42,453 nt of DNA from a virus. The stretch is from the IMG/VR virus record IMGVR_UViG_3300022937_003426, positions 1 through 42,453 of that record. One strand, 5' to 3'. This document shows, one piece after another, positions 97 through 9,797 of this stretch. The notes under the pieces were generated by a model. It had not been told where the DNA came from and made no database searches. It saw only the letters and a program-made list of their open reading frames with translations. Position 1 is the first letter of the stretch. Each line of letters opens with the position of its first letter. Made by a program: the position numbers and the translations under genes.

Positions 97-124
97 AAAA
101 AAGGCGGGGGATAGCCCCGCCTTT
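97..124 (-). terminator. Intrinsic terminator after ssb
   Basis: A perfect 10-bp stem pairs 100-109 (AAAGGCGGGG) with 115-124 (CCCCGCCTTT) around a 5-base loop. On the minus strand it is followed by a run of T (97-102). It lies about 20 bases past the ssb stop codon and closes the replication operon. It also abuts the start codon of the next gene. Confidence 0.9.
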
Positions 125-146
125 CCCTAGCTTACATCATAAGACT

Positions 147-527
147 CTAGAAGGCAGCAACGGTATCCTCTTCTGCTTCTTCTTTCTTGTCGTTGGACAG
201 CTTGGTTATCTTAGAAAAATTATTAACCCTGATCTTAAGAGTTGAATGCTTAACACCATCCTTCTCCCAGCTATCATTTCTAATTGACCCCTCGACCATA
301 ACTAAGTCACCCTTGCTAAAAGAATTTCCTATAATTTCGGCTCCAGTGTCCCAAGCCTCACACGGAATAAAAGACTTAATCTTATCCTTTTGTCCATTAT
401 TTTTAGTATACTCTCTGGATGTGGCAATAGTAAAATTGACCACTGAAGTATTTTTACCACTACTAGTTTGAACAGATCGAACAATTGGATCTCTAGCCAG
501 ATTACCTTTGATTAAAGCTATATTCAT
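147..527 (-). CDS. ssb: Single-stranded DNA-binding protein
   Basis: A 126-residue OB-fold protein that coats ssDNA during phage replication and recombination. The N-terminus (MNIALIKGNLARDP), the VNFTIATS strand and a central FIPCEAWD resembling the F-x-x-V/C-x-x-W/F pattern match bacterial SSB. The segment GDLVMVEGSIRNDSWEKDG is the usual L45/beta-4 region. The C-terminus is short and acidic and ends AAF, a reduced form of the partner-binding tip (DDDIPF in E. coli). The ATG has AGGAG about 12 bases upstream. A perfect sigma70-type promoter lies at 574-602 and a strong terminator follows, so ssb can be expressed alone at high level although it ends the replication operon. Confidence 0.93.
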   Translation of the reverse strand: MNIALIKGNLARDPIVRSVQTSSGKNTSVVNFTIATSREYTKNNGQKDKIKSFIPCEAWDTGAEIIGNSFSKGDLVMVEGSIRNDSWEKDGVKHSTLKIRVNNFSKITKLSNDKKEEAEEDTVAAF

Positions 528-573
528 TTTTTAATTAACTCCTGCTTTCTAAAATAAAAACCAAACGATACTT

Positions 574-602
574 ATTATATCACGGACGATGTACTATGTC
601 AA
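574..602 (-). promoter_or_regulatory. Perfect sigma70-type promoter for ssb
   Basis: Reading the minus strand, TTGACA (602-597), a 17-bp spacer (596-580) and TATAAT (579-574) match the consensus 12 of 12. Predicted transcription start is near 567, giving a leader of about 40 nt before the ssb ATG at 527. The -35 box overlaps the last codons of the polymerase C-half gene. Confidence 0.85.
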
Positions 603-2218
603 CCTCTGGGTTTGTATATCTTATCTAGCACTATACCACCGTTTTTGGCAGTTTTACCCTGTATGATAATAATATTTCCCTCAAACAGCTCATTTCTATA
701 CAAGGTAAGCTGCTCTGTGAACAAAATAACAGAATCGCATGATCCGGTGCTGTCTCTAACTGTCATGAAGCACATATCGCTACCTTTGTTTGGACCATTT
801 TTTATTTTCACAATATTGAAATTATCTACCTCAACACCCATTATAATTTTAGCACCGGGTTGGAGTCCTGTGATATCTTTACATTCAGCATTGGTATTAC
901 TCATATTATATGAATCTAAACGACAATGCGTGAGATTAATACCTAGTAGGTCTGTTTCTGTATCACATATCCATTCTATCTTATCTGCGAGAGAATAGGG
1001 AGGATTTTCTAGCGTATGAATTAAATTGTTAATCACACCTTTTCTGTTTGTGTTTAATCTGGGTTTTTTGAGAGATATGTTGAGTATATCAATTAAATTA
1101 AACTCAAAAAGATCTAGGCTGCATATATATTCTTTTTCTTTTTTTGTTAATTCTAATACAGCATCGTACTCAAACAACATTTCTGTTCTGGGTTTATTGT
1201 ACTTGTCCAAAGCTCCACAAGAAATTAAAGCTTTGGCTGCTGTAGATGTAATTTTATCTAATATAAAGAATAAACACTGAGACCACGATAAATTAGATAG
1301 GTCGTTTTCTTGAGTAATGTTCTGTAGTTTTTTAAATACAGAATCACCAACATTCTTAATATCTGTTAAACCAAAATGTATCCTGTTGTCTTTAATGCAA
1401 AAATGCTTATTCATAAAGGAAAGCACAGGAACGCTGATTTCTATACCCATTTCTGTTGCGTTTTGTACCAATTCCCTGACTTCTTGTTGAGGGTCTATTT
1501 TATCTTTAGCGTATTTAAGATAGGAAGCAAAAAATATTTTAGGAAAATGAGCTTTGCTATATGCGGATAGATAGCCATTATAGGCATAAGAGATGGCATG
1601 ACTCTTGTTGAAGCTGTATCTCTGACTTTTTTCAATCCAACCAAAAATTTCTTTAGCGTTTTCAATGGATGTTGCTTTAGTTTTTTTAGCACCATCCAGG
1701 AAAGATTTTTTAACCTTTGCCATAAGATCAACCTTTTTCTTTCCAATTGCTTTTCTTAGAACATCAGCCTCTTGCAAATCAAAACCAGCAACAATTCTGG
1801 CAATTTCCATGGCTTGTTCTTGGTATATCATTTCCCCATATGTGGGCAATAGAACAGACTCTAGACATGAATCAAAGTAGTCTATACTTTCTTTACCATT
1901 CTTTTTGTCGATAAAGTGATTACTAACACTCTTACCATCTCTCATAGCCTCTAAACAACCGGGTCTCATGATACTAATAAGAGCAGAAAGCTGTTCTATA
2001 TTAGATGGCTGTAATTTTTTGGCCATCGACCTGCCAAGTCTGGACTCTAACTGAAAACAACCTTTGGTATTGCCCGACGATATCAAATCCCAGGTTTTTT
2101 TGCATTCCAAATTTAGATTTTCTAAATTCAAAGAAAAATCTAATAAAGGAATTTCCCTGTCAGACTCTTCTTCTAACAACCTAAACTTGCAACCGCAATC
2201 AAAAGTATAATATTTCAT
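599..2218 (-). CDS. dnaE: DNA polymerase III alpha subunit, C-terminal half (split DnaE)
   Basis: A 539-residue protein matching the fingers and tail of bacterial DnaE. Visible landmarks are FQLESRLG (about 55-62), LISIMRPG (80-87), the LLPTYGEMIYQEQAM block (about 123-137), AGFDLQEADVLRKAIGKKK (144-162) and YSFNKSHA (201-208). The last 100 residues look like the OB-fold domain. All three catalytic aspartates are in the separate N-half gene (3085-4962), so this chain cannot polymerise alone and presumably assembles with it; the two sum to 1164 residues, the usual DnaE length. The first residues contain a Cys-Gly-Cys (8-10), unlike cellular DnaE. The ATG overlaps the exonuclease stop as ATGA, indicating coupling. 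The break is between genes, not a frameshift. Confidence 0.9.
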   Translation of the reverse strand: MKYYTFDCGCKFRLLEEESDREIPLLDFSLNLENLNLECKKTWDLISSGNTKGCFQLESRLGRSMAKKLQPSNIEQLSALISIMRPGCLEAMRDGKSVSNHFIDKKNGKESIDYFDSCLESVLLPTYGEMIYQEQAMEIARIVAGFDLQEADVLRKAIGKKKVDLMAKVKKSFLDGAKKTKATSIENAKEIFGWIEKSQRYSFNKSHAISYAYNGYLSAYSKAHFPKIFFASYLKYAKDKIDPQQEVRELVQNATEMGIEISVPVLSFMNKHFCIKDNRIHFGLTDIKNVGDSVFKKLQNITQENDLSNLSWSQCLFFILDKITSTAAKALISCGALDKYNKPRTEMLFEYDAVLELTKKEKEYICSLDLFEFNLIDILNISLKKPRLNTNRKGVINNLIHTLENPPYSLADKIEWICDTETDLLGINLTHCRLDSYNMSNTNAECKDITGLQPGAKIIMGVEVDNFNIVKIKNGPNKGSDMCFMTVRDSTGSCDSVILFTEQLTLYRNELFEGNIIIIQGKTAKNGGIVLDKIYKPRG

Positions 2219-2904
2219 ACAAAAGAATTTCTAAATTTAATTTTCTGCGAAAGGTTCCTGTGTAATTTTAAAAATCTGATTAGAATTTCTGCTGAATCTT
2301 TAACATCTTTAAGGGCGTCATGAGCACCTTCTTTGGAAATACCCACGTAATCACGAAAATGATCAAGTGTATATTTTTGCAACTCATCGTTTGATTCAAA
2401 CCAATAGAAGAGTAGGTTCATAATATCTATGACATCTCTAGGATAGAATAGGTCAGAATTCCCCTCCTTATTAACATTTTTATATTTTTTGCTGAGTCTC
2501 TGCAATATTCTAAGATCAAATTTGTTTATGTTATATCCAGCAGCAATAGGGGCTGAAAACTGATTTTTTCTAGCTGATCTTGTATGATACTTTTCCAGAT
2601 AACTAACAAACATTTTCCAGCTAGCAGATTGCTTGGGATAATTATGCCAAGTAGCTAATACTTTGTCTTTTGAAGAATTAGAAACTTTTGCATGAAAGTC
2701 TAACACATCGCTATCTTCATAAGCATAGTCTTTCTTTTTATCTAATATCAAGGGTTTACAGTTGATATTAAATTCAGAGTCTGGAATAATTTCTAACTTT
2801 ATAGGATCTACCATAATTGCAGCAATCTGTACGGGATCACAGCTTTCTGGATCGGATCCGTCTGTTTCCAAATCAAAAACACAAATTTTTTGTTTATTAG
2901 CCAT
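2215..2904 (-). CDS. DEDDh 3'-5' exonuclease (DnaQ/RNase T type), probable proofreader
   Basis: A 229-residue DnaQ-fold exonuclease. The four acidic residues and the histidine are visible: Asp11 and Glu13 in VFDLETDG, Asp130 in NINKFDLRIL, and His195 and Asp200 in GAHDALKD, which makes it the DEDDh subclass. The gene sits between the two halves of the replicative polymerase, overlapping the 62-residue ORF upstream by 8 nt and coupled by ATGA to the polymerase C-half. That placement argues for proofreading rather than RNA processing. In cellular PolC the exonuclease is inserted inside the polymerase chain; here it is inserted between genes. Confidence 0.88.
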   Translation of the reverse strand: MANKQKICVFDLETDGSDPESCDPVQIAAIMVDPIKLEIIPDSEFNINCKPLILDKKKDYAYEDSDVLDFHAKVSNSSKDKVLATWHNYPKQSASWKMFVSYLEKYHTRSARKNQFSAPIAAGYNINKFDLRILQRLSKKYKNVNKEGNSDLFYPRDVIDIMNLLFYWFESNDELQKYTLDHFRDYVGISKEGAHDALKDVKDSAEILIRFLKLHRNLSQKIKFRNSFV

Positions 2905-3085
2905 TCTGTGGTTCCACTATAGTTCCTGGTTGTAAAAATGTTTTCTGAGAGTTATCGTCTACCTGCCTAGCGTTTAAAGATTTGCAACAGCTCACTTTTT
3001 GCGCCTTTATTTTTTCAAACACAGTTGTTTTGCCAGGAATTGTAAATTTATCACCCTCTTTAAGTTCTGAAAATAATTTTGACAT
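2897..3085 (-). CDS. Small conserved-looking protein between polymerase halves
   Basis: A 62-residue ORF whose ATG overlaps the stop of the polymerase N-half (TAATG) and whose 3' end overlaps the exonuclease start by 8 nt. It has the pattern LKEGDKFTIPGK, a basic KIKAQK patch, SCCKSLNARQV and a C-terminal PGTIV strand. This suggests a small all-beta (SH3-barrel-like) domain. I recall similar short proteins in phage genomes but know of no function. Its place between the polymerase fragments makes a structural or regulatory role in the polymerase worth testing. Confidence 0.7.
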   Translation of the reverse strand: MSKLFSELKEGDKFTIPGKTTVFEKIKAQKVSCCKSLNARQVDDNSQKTFLQPGTIVEPQNG

Positions 3086-4962
3086 TATAATTCTCCATAC
3101 CTAAGTGTATTACTAATATTCATTACTTTGTCTAACATTGCAATGCCTAGAACATCAAACTTAATGATACCCAAATATTCTAAGTCGTTCATTTCCATAC
3201 CGGCAATTGGTTGTTTAGTTTTTGTATCAAAAATCATTGGACATATTTTTTCTAATTTTTGGTCTGTTATCACAACCCCAGCAGCGTGTTTTGATTGATT
3301 TACCTTGGTTCCTTCTAGCCTCATGGCTTGTTCGAACCTTTTTGCGAACGGCCCTGCGAGATTGCCCTCCTTATCAATATAACACCAATTCTCAAGGCTG
3401 TCAACCCTATTTTCCAGAGCCCACCTAATAATTGAAGCGTCTCCGTGCTCGTCTTTCATTTCTTCTAATTCGTCTGCTATCTTAGCTTCGTCTGGAATAT
3501 GCTTGGTAATCTGATTCATTTCATCAAAAGATACATCCCCATACACCCTTAATACATCCTTTAAGGCACCACGCCCTTTGAGAGTATTGAAAGTAATCAT
3601 TTGAGATACATTATCAGATCCGTATTTATTTTTAATATAATCAATCACTTGTTCTCTTTGATTAATAGGCACATCCATGTCAATATCAGGCATGGAAACA
3701 CGATTTGTGGTATTTCTTCCTGCATTATAAAAACGCTCAAATATTAAATCGTGCTTAATTGGATCGATAGACGTAATATCAATCAGATAAGAGACTAAAC
3801 AACCAGCAGCACTACCTCTGCCCGGTCCAGCTAACCACCCCTGAGACTTCACATATTTGACTATATCGGACACTATTAAAAAATAGCTAGACAAGCCAGC
3901 AGTTTGTAAAATAGATAGCTCATATTTGATTCTATCCGCGTACTTTTGGTGTAACGATTCATCTACTTTTTTTGCTATTTTATTCCTCCACCCTTCTCGA
4001 CATAATTGCCTTAAATATTCGTCTGGAGCCGATTCCGATTGAAATGGTGGAAGTCTAGGGGCATGATTGATGTCATATTCTTCACATAAACTATCTACAT
4101 AAATAGTATTGTCTATTTCTTCCTGCGGATGCAGTTCAGACATTTCGTCTCCTGAAAGAATGTAGTATTTGTCACTAATGAAAAATGTAGACATTGGCAC
4201 ATCTTCATTATTAGCAAGTTTACGATTAATCTCTGGCAAAGTTGTTTTGAGGTTGTTGCATAAAAGTATTCTTTGATCAATAGCGTCTTTTTGGTTAGCA
4301 TAGTGAGCATCTGGGGTGCAAATAACTTTGACTCCTGTTTTTTGGGCTATAATTCTGATGCATTCTGTTAGTTCCTTCTGTATCGGATTTAATTCATAAT
4401 CCATTAGTTGTGCTTCTAGAAAGAAATACTCACCAAATATATTTTTGAGCATTGATATTTCATCATAAGCAATATCTTCCCAATTAGGAACTATGGTGTC
4501 ATTATCTATAATTTTATTTGCAATGTAAGAGCCGAGATGTCCGCAAAAACCAATAAGATTATCATCTACTATCTCAGCCAGTTGCTGCATACTAATTCTA
4601 GGTTTTTTGTAAAAAAAATCTGGCTTATTAGATTCAGAAACAATATTGACTAATTTATTCCAACCTTGCAGATTTCTTGCTAAGACTAAGAAATGACTTA
4701 ATTTAGCATTGCTTTTATCTTTAATAGATGCGTGTTTATCGCAAATGTATAGTTCACAACCAAGAATGGGTTTAATTCCTTTAGACTTTAGTGCTGAGTG
4801 TATTTGTGCGGAACCTGCTATATTTCCATGATCCGTTATCGCACAGCTCTTAACTCCTATGTCAACACATCTTTGAGCAATTTGCTTCGGCCTACTTAGG
4901 CCGTCTAATAAAGAATAGTGACTATGAACGTGCAACGGAACATAACTATTGTTACTTGTCAT
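3085..4962 (-). CDS. dnaE: DNA polymerase III alpha subunit, N-terminal half (PHP plus palm)
   Basis: A 625-residue protein. Residues 1 to about 250 are a PHP domain with HVHSHYS (11-17), ITDHGN (42-47) and a CTPDAHY strand, so the metal-binding histidines look largely kept. The palm follows: GPGRGSAAG (379-387), the catalytic PDIDMD motif (Asp426, Asp428), SKHAAGVVI and the third catalytic Asp603 in IIKFDVLG. The chain stops 22 residues after that motif, exactly where cellular DnaE continues to the FQLES region found in the other gene (599-2218). All metal-binding catalytic residues are here; the fingers are in the partner. It starts by overlap with the P-loop gene stop at 4962. Confidence 0.92.
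   Translation of the reverse strand: MTSNNSYVPLHVHSHYSLLDGLSRPKQIAQRCVDIGVKSCAITDHGNIAGSAQIHSALKSKGIKPILGCELYICDKHASIKDKSNAKLSHFLVLARNLQGWNKLVNIVSESNKPDFFYKKPRISMQQLAEIVDDNLIGFCGHLGSYIANKIIDNDTIVPNWEDIAYDEISMLKNIFGEYFFLEAQLMDYELNPIQKELTECIRIIAQKTGVKVICTPDAHYANQKDAIDQRILLCNNLKTTLPEINRKLANNEDVPMSTFFISDKYYILSGDEMSELHPQEEIDNTIYVDSLCEEYDINHAPRLPPFQSESAPDEYLRQLCREGWRNKIAKKVDESLHQKYADRIKYELSILQTAGLSSYFLIVSDIVKYVKSQGWLAGPGRGSAAGCLVSYLIDITSIDPIKHDLIFERFYNAGRNTTNRVSMPDIDMDVPINQREQVIDYIKNKYGSDNVSQMITFNTLKGRGALKDVLRVYGDVSFDEMNQITKHIPDEAKIADELEEMKDEHGDASIIRWALENRVDSLENWCYIDKEGNLAGPFAKRFEQAMRLEGTKVNQSKHAAGVVITDQKLEKICPMIFDTKTKQPIAGMEMNDLEYLGIIKFDVLGIAMLDKVMNISNTLRYGEL
3376..3404 (-). promoter_or_regulatory. 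Possible internal promoter inside polymerase N-half
   Basis: Minus strand TTGACA (3404-3399), 17-bp spacer, TATATT (3381-3376), 11 of 12 consensus positions. It would start transcription near 3369, about 280 bp before the end of the N-half, and could supply extra mRNA for the 62-residue protein, exonuclease and C-half. It is inside coding AT-rich DNA, so chance is possible. Confidence 0.35.
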
Positions 4963-5570
4963 TACAGCCCCTGTTTTCTGTTTGCTTCTTGTGCCAATCT
5001 TTGTTTTTTGTTGTCTAAATCTTGATACAGAGAATAAGCATTAGGATATTTGTTGCTAAGTTCTGGATATTCTCGTCTGGGTTTTACGTCAAAAGATAAG
5101 ATGTTCTCATCACAACACAAGAAAGAAGACAGTTTTGCTGTATCAATATTATTAAAGTCAACAAAATAAATCGGGAAACTGGTATCTGCATTTATCCAAT
5201 TTTCAAATTGATGTTCTATGGAAAACAAATCGCAATTTCTTTCTTCGACCAGAGAAAAAAACCTATCGGCATTGGCCAGATTTGCAGGTTTCAGTTTTTG
5301 TGCGTTTCCAAGCTTTACCACTTGCAACCACGACCAGCTTGGATTTCTTCTGTAAAAAGAACATATACATTCAAAAGATTTATTATATAAGAAAATACAC
5401 TTGTTTACTTTGTAATTTGCTAATTTAGGATTATTGGGGCTGCTACTGTGCTTAAGCCCATCATTATCTCCAACAGAATTGGTTATAAAATTTTTACCTA
5501 ATTGCTTCATGAAATAGCTCTGACCACTACCTCCAGAGCCAACTATTAAAATATCTAATTCTTTTTTCAT
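4962..5570 (-). CDS. P-loop protein, sulfotransferase-like N-terminus
   Basis: 202 residues beginning with a strand and a Walker-A-like loop (LIVGSGGSGQSYFMKQL, about 8-24). The G-S-G-x-S form is closer to sulfotransferases and small kinases than to ATPases. The middle is rich in aromatic and basic residues (CSFYRRNPSWSWLQVV), and the C-terminus is charged and helical (DNKKQRLAQEANRK). No further motif is recognisable. It overlaps the polymerase N-half by one base and follows the RecB-like nuclease, so it is co-expressed with replication genes. The function is open: nucleotide or PAPS binding is inference only. Confidence 0.55.
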   Translation of the reverse strand: MKKELDILIVGSGGSGQSYFMKQLGKNFITNSVGDNDGLKHSSSPNNPKLANYKVNKCIFLYNKSFECICSFYRRNPSWSWLQVVKLGNAQKLKPANLANADRFFSLVEERNCDLFSIEHQFENWINADTSFPIYFVDFNNIDTAKLSSFLCCDENILSFDVKPRREYPELSNKYPNAYSLYQDLDNKKQRLAQEANRKQGL

Positions 5571-5581
5571 TTCAAAACTCC

Positions 5582-6628
5582 TTATTCTGCACTACCGGGA
5601 GGCTTGTAGTATCCAACATTATAGCCTGGAACTGTGTATTCGTCAACCACATTTTTCATACCTTTGGTCAGAATTTCGTGATGTATTTGTTCGCATTTCG
5701 TCATAAAGTCACCCTTTTGGCACACCTGACCGTCTCTATATTCTATGATCGGCAAAACATGATCGGTATCTTGAAAATTAGTTTTGCCATAATGGCATAG
5801 TTTTGTACATTTCCAACTTTTGCTTAATGTCGGAGTTTGACATTTTTGTATTTTCTTGAATTTTTTTCTGAGCAGATCTTCCATTTGGTTTAGATCAGAT
5901 TTTTTGAAGGAAACACTAAAAGGTCCGCCATCATTAATAAAAAATATAGTCACAATACAATTTTCTATTTCTGGATAGAGATGTTGCACAGCATAAAAGT
6001 ATAACATCAGCTGGGGATCTTTTTCTAACTTTTCTTGGGTTTTTTCCTCTCCAGTTGCCCAGTTCAATCTTCTTCCTGTTTTCCAGTCAATAATTTCAAC
6101 AGTATTATCATTTGGTCTGGTTAATAAATCTATTGTACCTTTAATTGACAAAGTTCCTTCTAATTTTTCACCATTGTAATCGTAAGTAAATTTTGCCCAT
6201 TTTTTATTGATTGGGATATCGAATCTTTGTTCTGGATACAATATATTTCTGTTTCTGGGATCAAACATTCCATCGCCATATTCTATGGCTTTATAAGTCC
6301 ATTTATGACAATCTTTATAATCTGTTGATGACCACTTATGGTGATTAAACATAGAGGTGTAGTATGCGTATACGTCATCTATGATTTTGTCTAATTCATA
6401 GTTGTTGATATCTATCTTACCTAAGATATCATCTTCAAAAGAATTTTCACCCTTTTGCTCTGTATATTTAACAAAAGCAAGAATTTCTAATACCTTATGA
6501 ACAATAGTTCCTTTATCAGCTTTTTTATTTGACGGTCCTTTATATCCTAGAACATAGTCAAAGAAATATTGTTGCTCACACATATCGTGAGTATTGTAGG
6601 ATGAGCTACGAAAATATGTAATTATAAT
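5582..6628 (-). CDS. RecB/Cas4-like PD-(D/E)XK nuclease, probable ATT start
   Basis: From the first in-frame ATG (6583) the protein is 333 residues. The nuclease core has GTIVHKVLE, KGTIDLL (metal-binding Asp), VEIIDWKTGRR (D-x-K) and QLMLYFYAVQHLYP (QxxxY), which is the RecB/AddB/Cas4 family. The C-terminus has SWKCTKLCHY, possible metal or Fe-S ligands. The frame stays open upstream and encodes TYFRSSSYNTHD directly before MCEQQYFFDY, restoring the S-x-S...C-x-x-x-(Y/F) helix that begins these nucleases. The only codons available there are ATT/ATA; an AAAAGGA Shine-Dalgarno (about 6636-6642) sits 8 bases before ATT at 6628, so I place the start there (348 residues). Likely role: end processing in recombination or replication. 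Confidence 0.8.
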   Translation of the reverse strand: MIITYFRSSSYNTHDMCEQQYFFDYVLGYKGPSNKKADKGTIVHKVLEILAFVKYTEQKGENSFEDDILGKIDINNYELDKIIDDVYAYYTSMFNHHKWSSTDYKDCHKWTYKAIEYGDGMFDPRNRNILYPEQRFDIPINKKWAKFTYDYNGEKLEGTLSIKGTIDLLTRPNDNTVEIIDWKTGRRLNWATGEEKTQEKLEKDPQLMLYFYAVQHLYPEIENCIVTIFFINDGGPFSVSFKKSDLNQMEDLLRKKFKKIQKCQTPTLSKSWKCTKLCHYGKTNFQDTDHVLPIIEYRDGQVCQKGDFMTKCEQIHHEILTKGMKNVVDEYTVPGYNVGYYKPPGSAE

Positions 6629-7227
6629 TGGACTATTCCTTTTGTTGTGAGAAAATCATATATAAGTTCGTTTTTACGTCCTATTTGCATGTCTGTATTA
6701 TTTATTACCAAATCAAAATTGGAGTAGTCGTAGTTATCCTCATCAAGAGCTGTTTCACTTTCGTGTTGAGAATCATATAAATTTCTATTCAATTTAAAAA
6801 CTAAACCACCAACACTTTTAACGGCTTCGACCTCATTCGGGAAACGACAATCTGCTATTAAAGCTAAAGGAAGATTTTCGTCTTGTATTTTTCGAATGGT
6901 AGCATCAGCCCAAACGTTGTTTTGCATTTTTCTGAACACATTAGTGCCGATATATTGCATTACCTCTCTAGCACTCATAGGTTTTTGATTATCTGGCCAA
7001 ACACAACTAACAAACTGATTTTTTTGTTCATCAGAACCGTAGCATTGTTCATAAGTTAAGCCTAATATATCTATGCACATTTGCTTTAAAGGATCAGCAA
7101 AATTATATATGGCAGAATTTTTTCTCATAGTTTGCGCATAGATATTGGCTATAAATTCACATGCGCTAGTTTTACCAGATTGTTTACGACCAGCAATCGC
7201 TATGATAGTTGTATTAGTATTGCTCAT
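6622..7227 (-). CDS. Deoxynucleoside monophosphate kinase
   Basis: 201 residues resembling T4 gene-1-type dNMP kinases, which phosphorylate dNMPs to dNDPs. The P-loop is AGRKQSGKT (about 12-20). FADPLKQM, MSAREVMQYIGT, the NNVWADATIR helix and a DCRFPNEVEAV segment are characteristic of the phage enzyme family. It makes metabolic sense with the dCMP deaminase and ribonucleotide reductase in the same direction. Its start overlaps the primase stop by 14 nt, and its 3' end overlaps the probable ATT start of the nuclease by 7 nt. Confidence 0.85.
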   Translation of the reverse strand: MSNTNTTIIAIAGRKQSGKTSACEFIANIYAQTMRKNSAIYNFADPLKQMCIDILGLTYEQCYGSDEQKNQFVSCVWPDNQKPMSAREVMQYIGTNVFRKMQNNVWADATIRKIQDENLPLALIADCRFPNEVEAVKSVGGLVFKLNRNLYDSQHESETALDEDNYDYSNFDLVINNTDMQIGRKNELIYDFLTTKGIVQL

Positions 7228-8377
7228 AAATTTTTTCTAATTGAGGTAAGATTATATTTTGTATATCTGTTATTTTCATTTCTCCAATATCAGGAGCATC
7301 AAACTCCGGTCTATATATGCGATATATGTCCTTACACTTTTCTTGAATTTGTTGATATGCCTTATGACCAGCTTCATCATTGTCCGTTAATACCACAATG
7401 TTCATAGCTCCAGAAGAATCTATCAAGAGTTTCTGATAGTTGCTCAAAGAAGAGCCAAATAAACCAACGCTGTTATGCAAGCCAGCTTCTTCAAGCCTCC
7501 ATACATTTCCTGGGCTTTCAACTAAAATTATTGTTTTTGTATCCTTGATATAAGGTTTGGCAAAAGAAAAGTTGTATAAATTGTTTTGTGATTGAAAATT
7601 CTGATTGTGCTTCCATTTTGAGTAAATCCATCTTTTGTTGGGTTCTGGGCATTGTTTGTTTGGATGGTGGTAAGATTTACAACTAGAACATTGTGAATGT
7701 ATGCTTCTACCTGTGCATCCGGTAACATACATTCCATCTGTTGAATATACTGGGACTACTACTCTATTATAAAATGGTTTCTTGGGGTTGTCACATAGGC
7801 CGACACTATATTTTTCTAATACTTCCCTAGAATAGCCTCTATCTAGGTAGTATTGAGCAGGTATATGCAATGACCGCTTAACTTGCTGCGGGTCTAATTT
7901 CATTTGTTCGGATTGCGTATTTTTGCTAAAATTCTTAGCTATATATACAAAGTTGTCCACACTACTTGACTTTGTTGTATTAATGCTATCGAGGTCTTTA
8001 TTTAAAAATTTAAGGATAAATTCTACGGCTTGTTTAAACGATACTGTTTTATCTCCAGATTCCGACCATTCATACTGTTGTCTAGATAACACACCTCTAA
8101 CAAAACCAATGATAGAAGATTTGAATACTTCTTCACAGTTGTGTGTTCTGCATTTCCAATTGCCCCTATACATATCTCCTGTATAATAAAGATTTAAGGC
8201 TGAGTGATTGTCTCCTTCGTGAATGGGGCATCTACAAAGCACCATCTTATCTGTCATTCTGTAATCTTCAACGCCCAGCACTTCCAATAATTTTTCAATA
8301 TCATCACAAGCTAGGTCGCACAAATTTTTAAGTTGCGTTTGACTATACGAAGTCGATTGTTTCATCAGACTGTTCAT
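7214..8377 (-). CDS. dnaG: DNA primase, DnaG type (CHC2 plus TOPRIM)
   Basis: 387 residues, shorter than bacterial DnaG (about 600) because there is no helicase-binding C-terminal domain. The zinc finger is visible as CPIH (50-53) and CRTHNC (76-81). The middle resembles the DnaG N-terminal core (YYLDRGYSREVLEKYSVGLCD). The TOPRIM domain has IILVESPGNVWRL and VVLTDNDEAGHKA, with the expected Glu and Asp-x-Asp. A cysteine-rich CSSCKSYHHPNKQCPEPNK insertion near the middle may bind another metal. The start overlaps the helicase 3' end by 35 nt; Met5 (8365) is an alternative. It makes the primers for the split polymerase. Confidence 0.9.
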   Translation of the reverse strand: MNSLMKQSTSYSQTQLKNLCDLACDDIEKLLEVLGVEDYRMTDKMVLCRCPIHEGDNHSALNLYYTGDMYRGNWKCRTHNCEEVFKSSIIGFVRGVLSRQQYEWSESGDKTVSFKQAVEFILKFLNKDLDSINTTKSSSVDNFVYIAKNFSKNTQSEQMKLDPQQVKRSLHIPAQYYLDRGYSREVLEKYSVGLCDNPKKPFYNRVVVPVYSTDGMYVTGCTGRSIHSQCSSCKSYHHPNKQCPEPNKRWIYSKWKHNQNFQSQNNLYNFSFAKPYIKDTKTIILVESPGNVWRLEEAGLHNSVGLFGSSLSNYQKLLIDSSGAMNIVVLTDNDEAGHKAYQQIQEKCKDIYRIYRPEFDAPDIGEMKITDIQNIILPQLEKIYEQY

Positions 8378-9797
8378 TGATTATAAACCCATCATTTTTA
8401 GAGGAAATATTGTTCTTAATTTCTAATTTAGTATTACCTTCAGTAATTTTTGCACACCAACCTTCCATATGACAATTGATATAGTCATTGTCATCCAATC
8501 CTCCACCATGTCTACTAATCACTGGAATTAGTTTTCTATTTCCAGCTTCTGGTCCATCTTCTGCAATTTCTTCATCAGATTTTCTTTTGAATATTGTAAA
8601 ATTACTACATAACCATATGATTCTATCCGAGCCGCTGGCTGTATCTGTTGATTCTTTCGTGATACCATCTCTGTTTAATTGTATAAAAGAAACAATCGGT
8701 ACTTTATATTTATTTGCTAAGTTATGCAAAGATGTCATCATGAAACCGAGCACTTGATATTCTTTCATGTCTTGAGAAATGCCCTGGCTATCCATAAGTT
8801 TCAAATAATCATAAAATATCACGCAGTCTTTAGCAGTTCCATCTGAATTGAGACCCACATCTTTTACAAGCCATCTTTTTATGACAGACAACTGCTCATC
8901 AAACGGTTTGCCAGAAATAGATTTATAATAAAGTTTAGATTCTTTGAGTTGTTTGGCTGCTTCTAGAATCTTAGTCTTTTGCATTTCGCTATTAGCAAAT
9001 TTTCCGGTCTCAATTTTATTAATTTCTATTGATGAAATCATGGCTAAAATTCTATGTATATGGTCTTCATGGGACATTTCTGTATCTAGATTCAAAACAG
9101 GGATTTGTAATTTCGAAGCTATATGAAAACCCATATTATCAGACAGCAAAGTTTTACCGGTTTTTGGTCTTGCTGCAATAACATTAACCGTACCTCTTCT
9201 CAAGCCTCCTCCTATAGATTGATCATAGATTGGAAAGCCGGTTGAGATACCGACATTGGTAACAGGATTGCTGATTAAATAATCGATGTGTTCATCAACA
9301 GTATCTCCGATATGTATTGGCTGATTTTCAGCATCAGAAACAGAGGATCCAAAATCAAACACCGTATCTTCTGCTATAGCTAAAATTTTACCAACACTTT
9401 CTGTACCTGTAAGATCTCCTATCTTCTTACCAGCAAGTTCTAGTTTTCTTTTAAGAGTTCTTGCTATTTCTAATTTTTTAAGAGTAGCAGCAAACTTTCT
9501 CAGATTTTCTGACTCTACAGGAAAATCTATAAGAGATTTTAAATGCTCGCTTTCGCTTTTGCCAGCAAGTACGGTATCGCAACCTAATTGCTTTGCGGCA
9601 GAATATATTGATGGAACATCTATGGTTTTTGTATCAGACTCTTCATAAATTTGCTTTATACACTTATATATAATACTATTGGTTGATATAGTAAAACTAT
9701 TTTCCGAAACAATATCAGAAACATCCAAATAAACATTTTCACCATAAGTAATAATACCAGCTAAAACAGCTCGTTCTGCGGCAGGATCTGATAACAT
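8343..9797 (-). CDS. dnaB: Replicative DNA helicase, DnaB type
   Basis: 484 residues with the two-domain DnaB layout. The N-terminal helical domain begins LSDPAAERAVLAGIITYGE. The RecA-like ATPase domain has GGGLRRGTVNVIAARPKTGKT (Walker A at 209-216), VLNLDTEMSHEDHIHRI, the Walker B CVIFYDYLKLMD and the VPIVSFIQLNRDG sensor region. It unwinds DNA ahead of the fork and should act with the overlapping primase gene. It ends with an acidic, poorly conserved tail. Confidence 0.93.
   Translation of the reverse strand: MLSDPAAERAVLAGIITYGENVYLDVSDIVSENSFTISTNSIIYKCIKQIYEESDTKTIDVPSIYSAAKQLGCDTVLAGKSESEHLKSLIDFPVESENLRKFAATLKKLEIARTLKRKLELAGKKIGDLTGTESVGKILAIAEDTVFDFGSSVSDAENQPIHIGDTVDEHIDYLISNPVTNVGISTGFPIYDQSIGGGLRRGTVNVIAARPKTGKTLLSDNMGFHIASKLQIPVLNLDTEMSHEDHIHRILAMISSIEINKIETGKFANSEMQKTKILEAAKQLKESKLYYKSISGKPFDEQLSVIKRWLVKDVGLNSDGTAKDCVIFYDYLKLMDSQGISQDMKEYQVLGFMMTSLHNLANKYKVPIVSFIQLNRDGITKESTDTASGSDRIIWLCSNFTIFKRKSDEEIAEDGPEAGNRKLIPVISRHGGGLDDNDYINCHMEGWCAKITEGNTKLEIKNNISSKNDGFIINEQSDETIDFV

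Follow-up and report, generated by a model that had tools for sequence, protein, structure and literature searches.

The 42,453-base virus record IMGVR_UViG_3300022937_003426 of IMG/VR (positions 1-42,453; "the window" hereafter denotes this whole stretch) encodes a DnaE-like replicative DNA polymerase in two genes, with two further genes between them. All four lie on the minus strand. The gene for the N-terminal half of the polymerase (N-half; 3085-4962, 625 amino acids (aa)) specifies a PHP domain and a palm with the catalytic residues D426, D428 and D603. Behind it come a small open reading frame (ORF) of 62 aa (2897-3085), whose product is a predicted SH3/KOW-like beta barrel, a gene for a 229-aa DEDDh (DnaQ/epsilon-like) 3'-5' exonuclease (2215-2904), and the gene for the C-terminal half (C-half; 599-2218, 539 aa), which holds a Cys-Gly-Cys hairpin, the fingers, a helix-hairpin-helix (HhH) and an OB fold. 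The ends of adjacent genes overlap, N-half and small ORF by 1 base, small ORF and exonuclease by 9 bases, and exonuclease and C-half by 4 bases. An earlier note on this DNA had described just such a polymerase in two genes, with a small ORF and an exonuclease between them and all four genes coupled, and both the ORFs and the overlaps bear out that description.

The N-half matches the Pfam families PHP (PF02811, 1e-32) and DNA_pol3_alpha (PF07733, 3.2e-76) as well as PHROG 405 (8.8e-162), and in a profile search of the Protein Data Bank (PDB) it matches DnaE structures as far as the end of the palm. The C-half matches the finger domain (PF17657, 2e-45) and HHH_6 (PF14579, 1.3e-6). Its OB match in Pfam is weak (0.0022, under the cut-off), and a structural model of the C-half (predicted local distance difference test (pLDDT) score 83) agrees from residue 21 onward with PolIII alpha chains, and at 428-539 with OB folds; the protein ends there, without a further C-terminal domain. 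Together, and over two chains, the halves present the hallmarks of the C family, namely PHP, palm with its Asp triad, fingers and HhH. D426, D428 and D603 are invariant in an alignment of 37 relatives, and the N-half runs on for another 22 residues past D603, so that the earlier note was right to place all three catalytic aspartates in the N-half, the fingers and OB fold in the C-half, and the split 22 residues past the third catalytic motif.

The exonuclease, which that note had called a DEDDh enzyme of the proofreading type, matches RNase_T (PF00929, 3.9e-9) and PHROG 192 (DNA polymerase exonuclease subunit; 2.7e-18), and D11, E13, D130, H195 and D200 are invariant in 45 aligned sequences. 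The catalytic residues of polymerase and exonuclease alike are unchanged over relatives of 55-100% identity. Seven of the nine presumed metal ligands of the PHP domain are invariant; the first two are kept in 31 of 35 aligned members, and the members without them are rows in which the N-terminus reads differently, perhaps through an insertion there. At position 142 a histidine stands in for the presumed ligand that is a cysteine in other PHP domains. In four loci (L034, L037, L039 and L041) the N-half begins with FLxES in place of the first PHP metal-binding motif, HxH, and an insertion or intron close to the start is possible. Since ligands and catalytic residues are largely invariant, both the PHP and the DEDDh nuclease may be active. 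The position of the exonuclease gene, taken with a C-terminal tail of the protein that is conserved among relatives, suggests that the exonuclease may bind the polymerase.

Conservation of the four genes among related viruses

A search with the C-half gave 254 related viral contig stretches and a profile of the exonuclease gave 410; with a profile of the N-half the number was at least 557 of the first 600 pattern matches, which include other DnaE. Loci were counted as distinct after collapsing at 95% C-half identity, some contigs having come in through several queries. The earlier note had proposed looking for the same gene order in other phages, and all four genes occur in the order N-half, small ORF, exonuclease, C-half in 227 fetched viral loci, 105 of them distinct, with no fused polymerase in any. 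The order also holds in every one of 80 additional loci that were collected with the exonuclease as seed, although in a few the N-half or C-half is itself interrupted. The N-half stops and the C-half starts at about the same position in every member inspected, and the small ORF overlaps the exonuclease gene in 91 of the 105 distinct loci and the exonuclease gene overlaps that of the C-half in 68. Because so many loci share the order and none is fused, the arrangement is far beyond chance; an error of sequencing or assembly is ruled out by the 105 distinct loci that share the split. An apparent N-half in three pieces (L327 and L328) proved to be one intact ORF in each, the extended match being spurious. 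The family is thus a large lineage of uncultured phages in which the split is fixed lineage-wide. A scan of cellular genomes returned, among the matches listed, only dnaE-like genes of at most 36% identity and no host or prophage.

A few loci carry extra genes in the gap, of 0.7-2.6 kb (L039, L065 and L084). The added ORF of L039 has no Pfam match and looks to us like an HNH-type endonuclease; L065 and L084 have a protein of about 140 aa in common, and L084 also has an ORF that we take by eye to be ThyX-like. In L084 a DUF1559 protein lies between exonuclease and C-half (L084:5797-6882). DUF1559 proteins are pilin-like and common in planctomycetes, a possible clue to the host.

One N-half and one C-half are present in each of the 22 long related records examined (64-223 kb), save that two of them (G004 and G005) give two N-half matches, the N-half itself being interrupted there. 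No other C-family polymerase, no family B (PolB) or family A (PolA) polymerase and no beta clamp gene was found in these 22 records. A full-length polymerase elsewhere in the genome, which the earlier note had named as a finding that would speak against its reading, was likewise not found in them. The split pair is the sole detected replicative polymerase of the records examined.

The hairpin, the small protein and the surrounding genes

The C-half first aligns to the alpha subunit of Escherichia coli at residue 585 of the latter (profile position 30), which places the extra segment at its start before the fingers. The Cys-Gly-Cys hairpin lies outside nearly all ranges aligned to PolIII alpha structures and is present in 101 of the 105 distinct relatives; among the four exceptions, L283 is only cut short, whereas L132, L160 and L161 truly lack it. 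It is absent from all 76 outgroup DnaE linkers, phage and bacterial (a single CxC that was scored is out-of-frame sequence), in agreement with the earlier statement that cellular DnaE has no such segment, and by these comparisons the hairpin appears to be lineage-specific. Because the L132/L160 sublineage keeps the split without the segment, the hairpin is not essential everywhere. We considered a zinc site shared between the hairpin and the Cys-Cys pair of the small protein and rejected it as not universal, since the L132/L160 types lose the hairpin and keep the Cys-Cys.

The small ORF has no Pfam match, and a PDB sequence search with its profile gave none either. It was found in all 105 distinct loci, is single copy in 25 records, and its Cys33-Cys34 is invariant. 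Among close relatives codon differences concentrate at the third position (181, 162 and 412 at positions 1, 2 and 3), from which we conclude that the ORF is real, and this substitution pattern is that of a genuine gene under purifying selection. An AlphaFold2 model with four main strands (pLDDT 93.4) confidently predicts a small beta barrel, as the earlier note's "small beta protein" had anticipated. The model weakly resembles KOW/SH3-like domains (L2, EF-P and FeoA; best PDB Z 5.6, Foldseek E 0.1), and better fold matches are to several unnamed small phage proteins in BFVD (E 2.4e-4).

A gene for a single-strand DNA-binding protein (SSB; PF00436, 4.3e-23) adjoins the C-half downstream (147-527, minus strand). 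Upstream of the N-half lie a 202-aa ORF with a P-loop-like start (window 4962-5570) and, on the minus strand at 5582-9797, replication genes recognised by domain matches, so that the module reads helicase (DnaB-like), primase, dNMP kinase, PD-(D/E)XK nuclease, 202-aa ORF, N-half, small ORF, exonuclease, C-half, SSB. The SSB gene stands behind the C-half in nearly all relatives, and the upstream replication genes keep the same order there; the 202-aa ORF was detected among relatives only in near-identical copies of the window and in L007. In L027 the PD-(D/E)XK nuclease gene (L027:3257-5251) is interrupted in frame by roughly 1 kb of intein-like sequence, and similarly long spans occur in L019, L021-L025, L028-L033, L038, L061 and L063.

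Proposed assembly of the enzyme and competing explanations

We consider it probable that the locus encodes a split DnaE-like polymerase that is reassembled non-covalently, with the exonuclease as its proofreader and the small protein as an accessory, and that the split originated by gene fracture. The sole replicative C-family polymerase of these phages would then be made as two polypeptides, cut in the palm-fingers linker, which would fold together non-covalently and re-form the DnaE active site, one chain bringing the Asp triad of the palm and the other the fingers and OB fold. The DEDDh exonuclease encoded between the halves would dock as proofreading subunit, and the small barrel protein would be an accessory to it, stabilising the junction or the exonuclease or contributing to processivity. 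Overlaps between the genes would keep the products close together and near equal dose. By analogy with other phage genes, the cut most likely came from fracture of an ancestral gene, for example by a homing endonuclease gene.

The four-part enzyme of the earlier note, in which the small protein would be a stable fourth subunit, is plausible; the accompanying idea that gene order mirrors assembly is conjecture. We regard as rather doubtful the fuller proposal that the barrel protein is an obligatory subunit and that all four proteins join in a single replicase, with a proofreader that would sit beside the palm/fingers joint and a barrel that would supply a role such as processivity in place of the missing clamp motif, giving a modular, clamp-independent C-family replicase.

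Several observations weigh against non-covalent reassembly of a sole polymerase, or soften the case for it. Distances among N-halves correlate with those among C-halves (r = 0.81, and 0.68 once the exonuclease signal is removed), but such a mirror-tree correlation is expected for adjacent genes and is weak evidence of contact. The 22 long records are possibly incomplete, so that their lack of a second polymerase is strong, not absolute. The usual internal clamp-binding motif between HhH and OB, sought with a loose pattern that could miss a divergent motif, was seen in 2 of 69 members; with the motif so rare and no clamp gene found, processivity is unexplained. Save for the added gene in L039, no remnant of a homing endonuclease was seen at the palm/fingers cut, and the proposed origin is argued by analogy.

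The halves might associate while the small barrel protein is a mere operon neighbour, for instance a regulator or a translation-coupling ORF; the exonuclease too might stand outside the enzyme. This we think unlikely but worth keeping in view: many small phage proteins of no assigned function have a barrel fold, the PDB matches reach Z 5.6 at best, and two other phages, Fowlmouth and phiT1, share the cut without either protein. Against it, both genes stay in the gap in 105 of 105 distinct loci, the small protein is kept as a single copy with an invariant Cys-Cys, and the exonuclease belongs to a proofreader family. That the mature enzyme is instead one chain, with an intron, a split intein or bypass during translation to join its halves, seems very improbable. 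There are relatives whose N-half is interrupted by inteins and homing endonuclease genes (as in L044, with intein halves at GRG/SAAG), yet in 45 inspected loci intein sequence was seen neither where the N-half ends nor where the C-half begins, no Rfam intron family was found in window 100-5600, and the C-half opens with a start region of its own that carries the additional hairpin. Because the genes overlap in most loci, there is no room for an intron core. A match to Rfam mir-320 (E 0.047) is far under its gathering score and was taken as chance. It is also very improbable, in our estimate, that the split polymerase is decayed or secondary and that the phage uses the host polymerase, as the missing clamp gene and the lack of a recognisable clamp-binding motif might suggest; the catalytic residues of polymerase and exonuclease are all invariant at 55-100% identity, and the genes stand inside a helicase-primase-SSB module.

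Cut polymerase genes in other phages

The proteins share with bacterial DnaE/PolIII alpha (structures from E. coli, Thermus and Mycobacterium tuberculosis) the order PHP, palm, fingers, HhH and OB and the Asp triad, in sequence and in fold, and differ in being two chains, in the Cys-Gly-Cys hairpin, in ending at the OB fold and in a clamp motif that is mostly unrecognisable. Polymerases of the C family mostly, though not always, consist of one chain. Group 2.2 jumbo phages encode a split minimal PolIII alpha as two proteins, without other PolIII domains, from genes far apart and alongside a family B polymerase, the cut separating the NTP-binding from the Mg-binding part (Iyer et al. 2021, PMC7824862). 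In the lineage described here, by contrast, PHP and HhH are present, the genes adjoin, no PolB was found in the 22 records, and the main cut falls behind the palm. This palm/fingers junction is also where the polymerases of Mycobacterium phage Fowlmouth (genes 85/86) and Rossellomorea phage phiT1 (gp20/gp18) are divided. The halves of Fowlmouth overlap directly, and the gap of phiT1 holds another ORF, of 49 aa, which gives no match to the small-protein profile; neither has an exonuclease in the gap or the Cys-Gly-Cys. The split described in the earlier note is genuine, but its site is not unique. In an N-half tree the lineage forms one group separate from bacterial DnaE (support 78/86, not starred), and the polymerases of Fowlmouth and phiT1 group with other phages, on long branches, so that the palm/fingers cut probably arose more than once.

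Fractured genes (Dassa et al. 2009, cited by PMC10448857) are a related case, essential phage genes broken up around an inserted gene, and PMC10448857 also cites an endonuclease-split nucleotide reductase that functions as two peptides; in Jug phages, polymerase genes are split by endonucleases (PMC12363816). The inserts in those cases are homing endonucleases, whereas the pair fixed in the present lineage is a proofreader and a small barrel protein. Cyanobacterial DnaE is encoded in two genes with a split intein, as PMC3919608 cites from Caspi et al. 2003; here there are no intein halves, and two conserved genes occupy the gap.

A second site of interruption recurs. In the cultured phages Jayan (L091), 8014-B2 (L092), PMBT8 (L094) and LC76P1 (L095) DnaE is cut just before the catalytic DxD, and three of the four have HNH, LAGLIDADG or NUMOD-type genes within that cut or close to it; PMBT8 is apparently cut at both sites and has a NUMOD4/HNH gene at the palm/fingers site. 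The N-half is also cut before DxD, beside a LAGLIDADG-type ORF, in L019-L025 (L019:4036-7110) and L038 (L038:4125-7127), where its second piece has a new conserved N-terminal extension of about 80-95 residues. In these loci the polymerase would consist of three pieces, and a search for intron families at this cut gave none. L044 (L044:5001-6598) is a classic fractured gene, with a recognisable split intein in the N-half and a nuclease/endonuclease-like ORF between the intein halves. Two candidates were set aside: Bacteroides phage DAC19 carries a distant relative of the exonuclease, which has no polymerase half adjoining it and has a terminase and a DNA ligase among its neighbours, and the human-gut 'phage' record MT836517, with neighbours that by eye look RapZ- and WhiA-like, is probably a piece of bacterial chromosome and was not used as a phage example.

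Split phage DnaE is already known as a kind. The present arrangement was not described in the literature searched, most subscription journals being outside the scope of that search, and what appears new is that small ORF and exonuclease form a fixed insert, that the lineage has a Cys-Gly-Cys hairpin of its own, and that an entire lineage is fixed for the arrangement. Cuts in phage DnaE genes recur at two places, in the palm/fingers linker and immediately ahead of the catalytic DxD, and here a large and widespread phage lineage keeps a bacterial-type replicase as separately made parts, between which its proofreader is encoded. Such an enzyme is a natural two-chain system in which to ask which contacts make the DnaE active site, how the exonuclease is positioned, and whether a C-family enzyme works without the usual clamp motif. 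The split points to a polymerase put together from several proteins where bacteria make a single chain.

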